Assembly: GCF_001904615.1 (NCBI RefSeq)
Contig: NZ_MRBY01000030.1
Location: 1 to 47,406 of the forward strand
Origin: [Limnothrix rosea] IAM M-220
Lineage (GTDB): Bacteria; Cyanobacteriota; Cyanobacteriia; Cyanobacteriales; MRBY01
Direction of reading: 5' to 3'
Length of the DNA: 47,406 bases
Part shown: piece after piece, positions 33,362 through 37,633 of the stretch
Layout of the letters: each line of letters opens with the position of its first letter
Position numbering within the stretch: the first letter of the stretch is position 1
The notes under the pieces: model-generated
What the model saw: only the letters and a program-made list of their open reading frames with translations
The model's database searches: none
What the model was told of the DNA's origin: nothing
Position numbers and translations under genes: made by a program

Positions 33362-34336
33362 CTATTGTAAATTAGAGGCGATAGGGATAATAAGTTCATT
33401 TTGTACTGCTAATCTAATAGCTCGAAAAAAACTTGAAGTTTGGCTGTGGTTAGGGGCTTGAATGAGTTGTCGTGATTCTTCAACTTGTTGAAATGTGGGT
33501 GTTTTTGACAGTATTAAGGCCAGATATTGCCAAAGAATACGTCGTTGTAATGCCGGATGAAGTTGCCTTAGTGGAAGCCTTTGTAATGATTGATCTTTGT
33601 TTAAGTATTGGCTTAGTTTATCTGAGGCGATCGCCTCTAAATATTCATTTTCTTCTTGGCAAATTGCTGCTGTTTGGGCGAGGTGTTGTTCTGTTTTTTT
33701 GTTAATTTGTTTTAATTCTGGAAAGACATTGTGACGTAGCCGATTACGGGAAAAATGAAGATTTTGATTATAAATATCCTCGTAAATAGGTAGGTTAAAT
33801 TCCTGACAAAAAGCGGCTGTTTCGGTGCGACTCACGGTGAGTAAAGGACGGGTAAGGGTGACGTGATCTGCGAGACATCGCTGTTCTGTTAAAGCGCCTA
33901 AGCCTTGTAAACCGGAGCCGCGCACGAGATTAAACAGTAAGGTTTCGGCACGGTCGGTAAGGGTATGTCCTGTGGCAATTGAGTTGAATTTTTTTGCTAG
34001 CGCCATAGCTGTTAATTGCTGATAACGCCATTGCCGGGCTGCTGCTTCTGTTTCTTTAATGGGGGTTGTGGCTTCGCGCGAAAAAAAAGGCCTGTGCCAT
34101 TGCTGTGCGATTTTACGAACATGGTCGGCGATCGCCGCGTCTCCAGACCAGCCGTGATTACAGTGGGCGATCGCCAACTGCCACTGCCAACGTGAGGAGA
34201 GATCGACGAGTAGTTGCCCCAGACAAAGAGAATCTTGGCCACCGGAAACAGCGACCAAGATTTTCTGTCCAGGAGCGAGTAACTGGGTGTCCTTTAAATG
34301 CCGATGAACACGAGCATGGAGTAACGACCAGTTCAC
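33362..34336 (-). CDS. tilS: tRNA(Ile)-lysidine synthase
   Basis: 324 aa with GTG start. PP-loop ATPase motif VAVSGGQDSLCL (SGGQDS at 31-36), then LAIAHCNHGW, ATGHTLTDRAET and LVRGSGLQGLGAL, all typical of TilS, which modifies C34 of tRNA-Ile(CAU) to lysidine so that AUA is read as Ile. The C-terminus is short, as in cyanobacterial forms lacking the last TilS domain. Six bases after the acidic KGK gene on the same strand, so likely cotranscribed. Essential function. Confidence 0.95.
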   Translation of the reverse strand: MNWSLLHARVHRHLKDTQLLAPGQKILVAVSGGQDSLCLGQLLVDLSSRWQWQLAIAHCNHGWSGDAAIADHVRKIAQQWHRPFFSREATTPIKETEAAARQWRYQQLTAMALAKKFNSIATGHTLTDRAETLLFNLVRGSGLQGLGALTEQRCLADHVTLTRPLLTVSRTETAAFCQEFNLPIYEDIYNQNLHFSRNRLRHNVFPELKQINKKTEQHLAQTAAICQEENEYLEAIASDKLSQYLNKDQSLQRLPLRQLHPALQRRILWQYLALILSKTPTFQQVEESRQLIQAPNHSQTSSFFRAIRLAVQNELIIPIASNLQ

Positions 34337-34342
34337 CGATAA

Positions 34343-36388
34343 CTATTCAAGCTCCCAAATATCGGCGGACACCTCTTCTTCGTCGCCAGTGACGGCATCT
34401 AGAGGGTCATCTCCATCATCTAAAGCATCAAAGTCGAAATCCTCGTCGTCATTACTTTCAAATAATTCACCGAGACTAATGTCTTCCTCGCCACTGTCCA
34501 TGACACCACTATTATCGCCGAGATCAAAGGGGGACTCCATTTGAGGAGCTGTATCGGCGGGAGACTCTGTTTCAATGGCAGAAGCAGGCGAAGCCATTTT
34601 CTTCTTCATAATTGAAACATCAATAAACTCTCCGAGATCCTCCGTTGAGCCGAAATCAATTTCAGGGGGCAACTCTTCTGCTGTTAAGTCGTCTTCGTCA
34701 CTGATCTCGTCTTCGTTGTCTAGCAATAAATTGGCGACCTCATCATCCATAGAGCCATCGAAATCAAGGTCACTTTGTTCGAAGGAAAAATCATTTTCTT
34801 CTTCGTTAAAGGTTGAGTTAAAGGTTGATTCCAAGGCATTTTCGGGGTTAGCACTATCACCCTGGGAAATTTCGGTATCTCCAGCCGCTTCAAAATCAGT
34901 GAGGAAGTCATCGTCACTAGCGGCTGCTGTATCCTCTGGGGCGATCGCCTCCTCAAAGGGATCATCAAACAGAGATTCTTCCGCGTCTGAGTCATCTTCG
35001 TCAAAAAGATTATCTAAACCAAGCTCTGCCCCATCATCGGTATCAGGTTCAGAGGATTCCTCGGTCAAAAACTCGCCAAAATCAGCAAAAGCTCCATCGT
35101 CACTACTGTCATCCTCTGGGAGTATTGAGTCTGAGTCATCGTCATCGAAGCTTAACTCCTCAAGGCTCGCATCAGCATCGTTGGCACTTTCACTAGATTC
35201 ATCCTCTCCAAAGAGATCTTCAGCATCAGCGAATAGGTCATCGCTATCTTCGTCCGCATCAAGCCCTAGTTCATCTAAAGTTTCTGCTGCTAAAGTTTCT
35301 GCTGCGGTGTCTGTCTCGGCTGGAGAACTATCTTCGGCATCCGCAAATAAATCATCCTCTGCATCACCAAACAAATCATCGTCACTATCGTCAGTGACAG
35401 ACTCCAGTTCAGCGCTAGAATCTGCTTCGAGATCACCATCACCAAAGTCAAAATCAAGGGAATCGTCGGCAGTGTCCTCGCCAATGGATTCTAGTTCTGT
35501 GTCTAAACCCGCTAGAACTCCTTCTTGATCTTCTATCGTTGTTTCAGTGCTACTGTCTTCGTCAAATAGACTGTCGTCACCAAATAGATCATTAAGTTCG
35601 TCTTCGTCGGCCTGTGGTGCAACGGCGGCATCTAATGCGGTATGGTCTTCTGTCTCGGCGATCGCCTCCGAGTCAGATTCCGAGTCAGCATCACCCAGTA
35701 AGTCAGCAAACTCACCCACGGCAGCATCAAAATCCCCTTCGTCAGAGCTGATGATACTATCATCCGCGCCAAGCTCTGTCGCTCCAGTTTCCTCTAAAGC
35801 GTCCTCTGCAAATAAATCATCTAAGCCCGTATCACCAGATTCTTCTGAGGTCTCCTCTAGTTCATCTGCCGCAAATAAATCATCAAAACTTTCGTCATCT
35901 TCCTGAACAAAAGTGTCCTTCGCATCAACCGTCGTTTCAGCACTAGATATGGGAGTTGCAGAATCTTCAGGAAAATCAAACTCATCATCAGCAAAATCTA
36001 AATCCAGATCGTCAATTTCAGACGCCGCAGATTCAGCGATTACGGATGTTGCGGCAGCTACCGGAGCGAAGGACTCGATAGCTGCCTCAGTTTTTGGGTC
36101 AGGACTTACCTCCGCATCAGAATCTTCCGAAAACTCTAGATGTAAACGAACTTTCCCTTTCACCCAGCCATCGGAGCCGAAGCGTAAAACATCACAGTCA
36201 ATACCCTCAGCAGTAAGCCAATCGATGGTTTCGGGGGTTACACCGCCAACACCATTTTCGAGCATGAGCTGTTTTAAAGCTGCTGTAAATTCACTCACTC
36301 GGAAGGTACTGTGTCCAATCACAATCTGGGATTCGTTCCCGACGGACAGAACCTCGCCGCTGCTCAGTGGTTGAAAGTTTTTGCTCAC
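34343..36388 (-). CDS. KGK-domain protein with long acidic repetitive tail
   Basis: 681 aa with GTG start. Residues about 1-90 are a KGK domain, a cyanobacterial family of unknown role: SSGEVLSVGNESQIVIGHSTF, TIDWLTAEGIDCDVLRFGSDGW and KGK itself at 77-79 in VKGKVRLHLEF. The remaining roughly 590 residues are extremely rich in Asp, Glu, Ser and Ala and almost without basic residues until a short KKK near 595. About eleven short LF motifs recur in the tail (for example DDLFAADELEET at 169, DDLFAEDALEET, NDLFGDD, DDLFGDAEDDLFADAED). No signal or membrane segment. Predicted disordered. Directly precedes tilS. Confidence 0.82.
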   Translation of the reverse strand: MSKNFQPLSSGEVLSVGNESQIVIGHSTFRVSEFTAALKQLMLENGVGGVTPETIDWLTAEGIDCDVLRFGSDGWVKGKVRLHLEFSEDSDAEVSPDPKTEAAIESFAPVAAATSVIAESAASEIDDLDLDFADDEFDFPEDSATPISSAETTVDAKDTFVQEDDESFDDLFAADELEETSEESGDTGLDDLFAEDALEETGATELGADDSIISSDEGDFDAAVGEFADLLGDADSESDSEAIAETEDHTALDAAVAPQADEDELNDLFGDDSLFDEDSSTETTIEDQEGVLAGLDTELESIGEDTADDSLDFDFGDGDLEADSSAELESVTDDSDDDLFGDAEDDLFADAEDSSPAETDTAAETLAAETLDELGLDADEDSDDLFADAEDLFGEDESSESANDADASLEELSFDDDDSDSILPEDDSSDDGAFADFGEFLTEESSEPDTDDGAELGLDNLFDEDDSDAEESLFDDPFEEAIAPEDTAAASDDDFLTDFEAAGDTEISQGDSANPENALESTFNSTFNEEENDFSFEQSDLDFDGSMDDEVANLLLDNEDEISDEDDLTAEELPPEIDFGSTEDLGEFIDVSIMKKKMASPASAIETESPADTAPQMESPFDLGDNSGVMDSGEEDISLGELFESNDDEDFDFDALDDGDDPLDAVTGDEEEVSADIWELE

Positions 36389-36527: not shown

Positions 36528-37541
36528 TTAGAAAAACCAGCCGTAGGAATGGAGTCCTTTGCCAAGAATATTAACGCCGAGATAGCAAATCCACACGACG
36601 ACAAATCCGGCTGCGGCTAGGAGGGCGGGTTGTCTACCTTGCCAGCCACGGGTAATACGAGCATGGAGGTAAGCGGCAAAAACAAGCCATGTAATCAATG
36701 CCCAAGTTTCTTTGGGATCCCAGCTCCAGTAAGAACCCCATGCTTCATTTGCCCAGACTCCCCCGGAAATAATGCCGATAGTTAGCAGGGGAAATCCAAG
36801 ACCAATGATGCGGTAACTAATGTTATCTAAAGTGTCGGCAAGACTCAACATTTGTGGGCTAAGACTGGGTGCTGCGGCAAGATTTTCTAGGGAGGGTTGG
36901 GTTAGGACCGCGGCATTCCCGTCAAAACTCGGTTGTTCTTTGGTGAAAGCAATGGCTGTTAAGGGGTCTTCGGATTCTGGTTGGTTATTGCGGAGACGAT
37001 AGGAACCGTTGCCGACGGAGCTGCCGCGTAATTCGATTTTTTGGCCTCTTGTCACAATCAAAAAGGCGATCGCCAATAAAGATCCCACTAACAAAGCTGA
37101 ATAGCTGATCATCATGACGCTAACGTGCATCATCAACCAATTAGATTTGAGGGCGGGTACGAGGGGAGCCGAATTTTGCATTTCTTCGGGTAAGGAGAGG
37201 GCGGCAAAGGCGGTAATGCCCATGGCGACAGGGGTGGTCACGGTGCCAACCCAACGACTACGGCTCATATTTTCTGCAATGAGATGCATGGTTGTCACGC
37301 CCCACGCGAGAAAAAAGAGGGATTCGTAGAGGTTACTGAGGGGGAAATATCCGGCTTCCAACCAGCGTGCGCCAAGTAGAGTCGCCATACATAGGTTGGC
37401 GATCGCCACACCGATAGTGCCCAGTTTTTGGAGCACAGTCAGGCTTGGAAACGCAGCACCACCCCAATAAACGAGCATGGTAATAAAGAGGACGAGAAAT
37501 GAGGTGTTATCTAAAAGGCTTTGGAGTGCAACCAAATCCAT
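36528..37541 (-). CDS. ccsA: Cytochrome c biogenesis protein CcsA (System II, CcsB/ResC family)
   Basis: 337 aa from ATG 37541 ([15 protein letters not shown]), chosen for its AGGAG ribosome site; the ORF extends 11 codons further. Multi-spanning membrane protein with the haem-handling WWD-type motif [20 protein letters not shown] near the C-terminus and flanking His residues ([26 protein letters not shown]). With Ccs1/ResB it carries haem to apocytochromes c on the lumenal side, as needed for cytochromes f and c6. Databases name this protein both CcsA (Ycf5) and CcsB. The soluble insertion at about 175-230 is variable. Confidence 0.92.
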
Positions 37542-37633
37542 TTTGGGTTCTCCTGAAAAATAAAAATTACGCAAAAAAAAAGTTGTTATTGATTAGTTTT
37601 ATAGTTTCAATAAAAATTGTGCCAATTGTTACT

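Follow-up and report, generated by a model that had tools for sequence, protein, structure and literature searches.

Locus and protein layout

The window analysed here, a 47,406-nt stretch of a [Limnothrix rosea] IAM M-220 contig, carries ccsB, a KGK gene and tilS in this order on one strand (Table 1). tilS is an essential tRNA gene, and only 6 bases separate the stop of the KGK gene from the called tilS start. The initial annotation had already placed the two genes side by side; we confirm the adjacency and amend it, since the KGK gene lies between ccsB and tilS. A promoter and terminator scan was uninformative (10 promoters versus 6.3 in shuffles, and 3 terminators versus 4.3). Two Ser-rich open frames run opposite the KGK gene; they are probably the mere complement of its acidic codons.

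Residues 30–92 of the protein match the Pfam KGK profile PF08872 over profile positions 35–98 of 119 (E 3.6e-7). The score of 31.1 bits exceeds the Pfam cut-off (25.6), which places the protein in the KGK family. It is the sole KGK match in this genome. The following 590 residues (92–681) hold 220 acidic residues (128 D and 92 E). Lysine occurs five times in this stretch, three of these at residues 595–597, H and W occur once each, and R is absent. The initial annotation's description of the gene as a KGK domain with a 590-residue acidic tail nearly free of basic residues and bearing about eleven LF motifs is therefore accurate.

Table 1. Positions of the features discussed. Entries without a locus prefix refer to the window.
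Feature	Position	Strand	Details or basis
KGK protein ORF	34343-36388	minus	681 aa, GTG start, KGK domain
KGK core, residues 1-91	36116..36388	minus	PF08872, AlphaFold pLDDT, 92% identity to L036
Acidic, predicted-disordered linker, residues 92-571	34676..36115	minus	composition, 44% identity to L036, pLDDT mostly <50
Conserved island, residues 572-600	34589..34675	minus	contains STEDLGEFIDV and KKK; conservation
C-terminal segment, residues 661-681, ending SADIWELE	34346..34408	minus	position table, end-motif comparison
Short tandem duplication, 24-bp unit	35330-35380		contains LF units
Short tandem duplication, 18-bp unit	35552-35588		contains LF units
tilS, tRNA(Ile) lysidine synthetase	33362..34336	minus	TIGR02432, E 7e-50; downstream of KGK gene
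ccsB, cytochrome c biogenesis	36528..37574	minus	TIGR03144, E 5.1e-108; upstream of KGK gene
Ser-rich open frame	34575-35528	plus	opposite KGK gene
Ser-rich open frame	35913-36374	plus	opposite KGK gene
HmpF	L057:6503-8257		NF038350
HmpF	L083:6391-8139		NF038350
HmpF	L041:1690-3444		NF038350
HmpF	L070:6907-8697		NF038350
HmpF	L039:7512-9269		NF038350
DUF3352 protein	L057:1301-3124		upstream of ccsB
DUF3352 protein	L083:1196-2923		upstream of ccsB
Group II intron reverse transcriptase fragment	L112:5097-5591		shortly downstream of KGK gene
KGK frame, 88 aa	L075:291-554		tilS-adjacent
KGK-matching frame, 501 aa	L040:4455-5957	reverse	genome G009; reverse-complement coordinates

L036 is the nearest relative, and identity to it is 92% over the core and only 44% over the linker (residues 92–571). 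The latter segment, which is 35% identical to L035, holds ten of the 11 LF dipeptides. It is followed by a conserved island (residues 572–600) with 93% identity to L036 and 83% to L035, and the proteins of L032–L034 terminate at the segment that corresponds to this island.

In the AlphaFold model of the window protein, block means of pLDDT were 71–90 for residues 11–90; 565 of the 681 residues, including nearly the whole linker and the C-terminal end (664–681), fell below 50. For a short orthologue, a C-terminal helix was predicted at residues 87–99 with a mean pLDDT of 76. The core profile had no relative among sequences of known structure at E up to 1, the full-length profile gave one insignificant match (MAK16, E 0.055), and Foldseek returned nothing at E 0.001 or better with either the full-length or the short-orthologue model (best E 0.76, full-length). 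Among the 50 matches shown in a further structure comparison of the full-length model, most were MDM2, MDMX or SWIB chains with weak scores (Z 3.5–4.6, rmsd 2.8–5.3, 53–71 residues aligned), and a Z under 8 may reflect just a common arrangement. The resemblance was not reproduced with the short-orthologue model, whose single match was ERH at Z 2.1. We treat a SWIB/MDM2-like fold of the KGK core, as suggested by the full-length model, as a lead only.

LF motifs are in excess in the window protein

The 11 LF dipeptides (residues 171, 192, 268, 274, 339, 347, 385, 392, 461, 473 and 642) compare with 3.27 expected from shuffles of the tail composition (P 0.0004), and DLF occurs seven times against 0.72 expected from shuffles. 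A few of these units lie inside short tandem duplications (Table 1). The residues flanking [LIVM]F in the window protein are also more acidic than expected (fraction 0.55 versus 0.38, P below 0.0005), and a similar enrichment was seen in nine of the 11 proteins tested, at P up to 0.04. Within the window protein itself, LF pairs lie no closer together than chance (P 0.20). The LF excess and the AlphaFold disorder together bear out the initial picture: the chain is acidic and predicted to be disordered, and its LF motifs are not random.

Distribution of KGK proteins at the ccsB–tilS locus

Eighty named loci (L052–L131) were the source of 23 complete long orthologues (at least 190 aa) and 54 short ones; L059, L062 and L069, truncated where their contigs end, were left out of the counts. 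Loci L032–L051 partly repeat the same genomes (for example L035/L052 and L048/L067), and L051, which had no match, is absent from the locus survey of orthologues. Alignments A2 and A3 consist of selected members, 44 and 30 rows respectively. Across the 80 loci, some of them contig-cut, the KGK gene is flanked by both ccsB and tilS in 41, by ccsB only in 25, by tilS only in six and by neither in eight. All 23 complete long orthologues adjoin ccsB, and 21 adjoin tilS.

Of 40 relatives, 36 have PF08872, and across the phylum 65 of 244 genomes do, mostly in short frames. A profile (A1) built from 12 long-type rows scored 137–150 bits in eight of 291 genomes, where every open frame measures 248–694 aa; six of the eight had contributed rows to the profile, so that the independent ones are G002 and G003 only. 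The next match reached 84 bits, and the weaker matches listed have frames of at most 202 aa.

In Nostocales the protein at the ccsB–tilS locus is about 100 aa long and almost without tail. Short locus proteins (97–129 aa) form a 39-row group in the CcsB tree with support 100/99, for which "Nostocales" is a reading of family names in that tree. The tree is rooted at its midpoint only, and the linker may have expanded in the window lineage or been shortened in Nostocales.

The surroundings of the locus vary. Beyond tilS, the pilus motility protein HmpF was found in five of the eight loci scanned for neighbours; at L054, L112 and L073 the scanned ORFs there are something else or unmatched, with no HmpF, and the window has a SigF-type sigma factor in this place. 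A DUF3352 protein lies upstream of ccsB at two loci, and a Nostoc MAG (L112) carries an intron-derived fragment close to its KGK gene (Table 1). The 88-aa KGK frame of L075 ends within the core; it comes from a MAG, and the copy is truncated or frameshifted. Genome G009 has, near a short KGK gene, a KGK-matching frame of 501 aa that is adjacent to neither ccsB nor tilS. This frame seems to repeat GKSWQKGTLKL-like stretches and, judged by these repeats, is possibly a multi-copy KGK relative; since it is not of the acidic type, a long frame alone is no marker of the acidic-linker form.

Short and long forms have similar C-terminal ends

An SPL[DE]- or FPL[DE]-type end was found in 49 of the 54 short proteins; in Nostocales it reads like SPLDEIFQKL and mostly comes soon after the core. 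Nearly all complete long orthologues (22 of 23) have [DES][VI]W within their last 30 residues, in ends that resemble SLLDDVWQDM or VFADIWQDI. The short form is typically SPLD[DE]I, a few residues, then L, and the long form SL[LF]xD[VI]WQD[MI]. A motif set derived from long proteins only was compared with 49 distinct short proteins, many of which are close Nostoc relatives. In 44 of these its best match, typically SPLDEIFQKL, fell within the final 40 residues, and in the other five it lay elsewhere; single matches had shuffle P values up to 0.32. The homology of the two end motifs rests on a comparison over 10 residues.

The profile matches end at different points in the two forms. Most short KGK matches reach Pfam position 115–119 (exceptions exist), and those in frames longer than 240 aa stop at 96–106. 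By our reading, the SPLDD-type end of the short members corresponds to PF08872 positions of about 99–119, a part of the profile that HMMER left unmatched in the long form; an SPLDD-like motif sits at the far end of the long orthologues and is degenerate in the window protein. On the basis of the shared ends and of the positions at which the profile stops, we read the acidic stretch as joining the core to the C-terminal end motif, which makes "linker" a more fitting word for it than "tail".

A set of 27 distinct proteins was picked for [DE][VI]W near the C-terminal end; it excludes L041 (SVWQDL) and the L032–L034 type. In 24 of them hydrophobic residues stand at both −4 and +3 relative to the tryptophan. 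The exceptions are L064 and two members of the window's genus, L035 and L036. The window protein, whose SADIWELE end also breaks this spacing, and L035 and L036 all end in SADIW[ED]LE, with polar or charged residues at −4 and +3; the window end is apparently a degenerate version of the long-orthologue motif. L032–L034 and L053 carry no W motif and end instead in an [ED]DLG[EQ]FINVxMFRKK segment that matches the window island 572–600. Judged from these ends, the motif is degenerate or missing within the window's own genus, which counts against a core–linker–end model.

Linker composition is steadier than its motifs

Eight of the 11 LF dipeptides are retained in L036, compared with 30 of 87 other hydrophobic-led dipeptides (P 0.018); the figures are four of 11 in L032 (P 0.013) and five of 11 in L035 (P 0.15), all P values being uncorrected for multiple tests. 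The excess was not significant in three further pairs. L033 and L034 keep none of the 11 by position, and each has seven LF of its own.

A broader set of 29 rows comprised the window protein, L032, L033, L036 and 25 of L052–L131, two of them contig-cut. In this set [DEN][LIVM]F was in excess in 12 rows (P up to 0.021), Spirulina and ESFC-1 included, absent from 13 and present in one or two copies in four. One group of the CcsB tree (support 94/72, not starred) has 12 rows, of which ten carry at least two such motifs, two of these ten being same-genome copies; L079 and L082, also in the group, have none. L065 and L066, in which the motif occurs four and five times, lie outside it. Other lineages carry FDL, DFD or LDL repeats.

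The acidic composition varied less. D+E makes up 25–43% and K+R at most 3.3% in 27 of the 29 rows, the linkers of L079 and L082 having only 13–15% D+E, and the aromatic content is 3.9–7.6% across the set. Linker dN/dS was 0.10–0.31 in eight pairs, a range biased low because only aligned columns were used, with dS up to 1.66 (window–L036); it exceeded the core value in five of the eight. The low dN/dS and the steady acidity argue against a purely neutral low-complexity expansion, which the initial annotation had named as the case that would overturn it and which is not supported here. These sequence comparisons point, not strongly, to constraint on linker composition rather than on exact motifs. 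The orthologue comparison that the initial annotation had proposed gave a mixed result. LF motifs are absent from 13 of the 23 complete long orthologues; with Nostocales almost tailless as well, LF itself is lineage-specific.

Comparison with known systems

In the available parts of two papers, KGK proteins are described as about 120 aa long and typically located downstream of a dynamin-like protein (PMC5827413, PMC10104851), a setting from which the window protein differs by its 681 residues and its place at the ccsB–tilS locus. Literature excerpts also call the function of the KGK domain enigmatic and list a KGK protein among the orthologues confined to filamentous cyanobacteria; the long-linker form does not appear in the excerpts on KGK domain or PF08872 proteins. 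The window protein shares with the known family the KGK core, with all 44 members of the chosen set A2 matching PF08872 at E up to 1. Many short members have an SPLDD-type C-terminal end that resembles the motif of the long orthologues, which is degenerate in the window protein. We rejected an association with dynamin-like proteins: the gene is flanked by ccsB and tilS, and the seven Dynamin_N matches of this genome (frames of 322–581 aa, candidates only) are all on other contigs.

Two repetitive disordered proteins invite comparison. The LFa pattern of FAM21 consists of LF, 3–10 acidic residues and LF again, and retromer is a eukaryotic complex. According to the text available on FAM21, its LFa repeats bind retromer, and it shares with the window protein a long unstructured chain with repeated LF amid acidic residues. 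The strict LF[DE]3-10LF pattern, however, occurred not once in the window protein and ten relatives, LF pairing in the window protein was at chance, and the motif type varies between orthologues. A FAM21-type LFa tail was therefore rejected, and the likeness is by analogy a resemblance of design only. Nothing in the analysis of the window protein points to a carboxysome link, and we know of no KGK core in the carboxysome scaffold CsoS2. CsoS2 is reported, in the portion of the source available, to bind multivalently and to phase separate (PMC11365436). It too is a repetitive scaffold of disordered nature whose repeats keep a few conserved residues, but these are VTG and Y rather than LF in the same portion of that source (PMC11365436).

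Discussion

The anatomy described above is well supported; the mechanism, with its binding and tethering, is what we infer from it. Our working interpretation, which we hold tentatively and a little short of calling probable, is that these KGK-family proteins consist of a core and an end motif joined by a linker that selection maintains as a tether and multivalent scaffold. One conserved element would be the folded KGK core, about 90 residues long, and the other a short amphipathic motif at the C-terminal end. The linker between them would be only a few residues long in Nostocales; elsewhere it would reach up to about 600 residues, acidic and disordered. Core and end motif may bind folded partners, or each other. 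Charge and hydrophobic stickers of the linker would be kept by selection, and the type of sticker (LF, IF, MF, FDL, LDL) would drift between lineages.

The LF stickers might, by analogy, themselves be the functional unit, each acidic-flanked LF binding a groove of a partner and the copy number setting the avidity. We consider this rather unlikely. The LF count is above chance, acid around [LIVM]F is raised in the window protein and in nine of 11 proteins, LF is preferentially retained in two of the three relatives from the window's genus that were compared, and the [DEN][LIVM]F excess in 12 of 29 rows reaches as far as Spirulina and ESFC-1; yet more than half of the complete long orthologues have no LF, the positions are lost in L033 and L034, and within the window protein the pairs are spaced at chance, form no LF[DE]3-10LF and in part arose as local duplications. 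A polyanionic linker in which charge matters and the hydrophobic residues do not, for example an entropic brush or a decoy that attracts basic proteins or those binding nucleic acids, is another reading. In its favour, acidity is the steadiest property of the linker and the neighbouring tilS, by its family, acts on tRNA. We regard it as no better than an outside candidate, because the aromatic content is steady too, LF is preferentially kept relative to both L036 and L032, two long rows have little acid and Nostocales have no acidic linker at all.

A largely neutral expansion, tolerated since the linker is disordered and soluble, would explain why its length varies so much at one locus, why its repeats are lineage-specific and often tandem-looking, and why identity between the window protein and L036 drops so steeply from core to linker. 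It is nevertheless improbable in the face of the low (though downward-biased) dN/dS, of an acidity that persists across poorly alignable sequences, and of the conservation of the island 572–600 and of the C-terminal end in the window protein, L035 and L036. Going beyond the tether interpretation, and far less likely, is a more specific model suggested by the weak structural match of the full-length model, which the short-orthologue model did not reproduce. In it the KGK core would offer a groove for an amphipathic helix, either its own C-terminal end or that of a partner. Growth of the link to hundreds of acidic residues, in one part of the cyanobacteria, would have made a small protein a scaffold of long reach or one that joins head to tail. 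The helix in the groove would place its hydrophobic residues at positions −4, −1, 0 (a W or an F) and +3, the same spacing as in the p53 helix bound by MDM2.

The window protein is a genuine and uncommon variant within a family already known, and the LF reading of the initial annotation is partly right at the level of the genus. KGK domains stand without an assigned function in the available excerpts of the literature. With a core, a variable linker and an end motif at a fixed locus, the protein offers three separable parts, and natural KGK variants range from about 100 to about 700 aa. It also provides a case of a bacterial disordered region in which composition is kept and motifs turn over.
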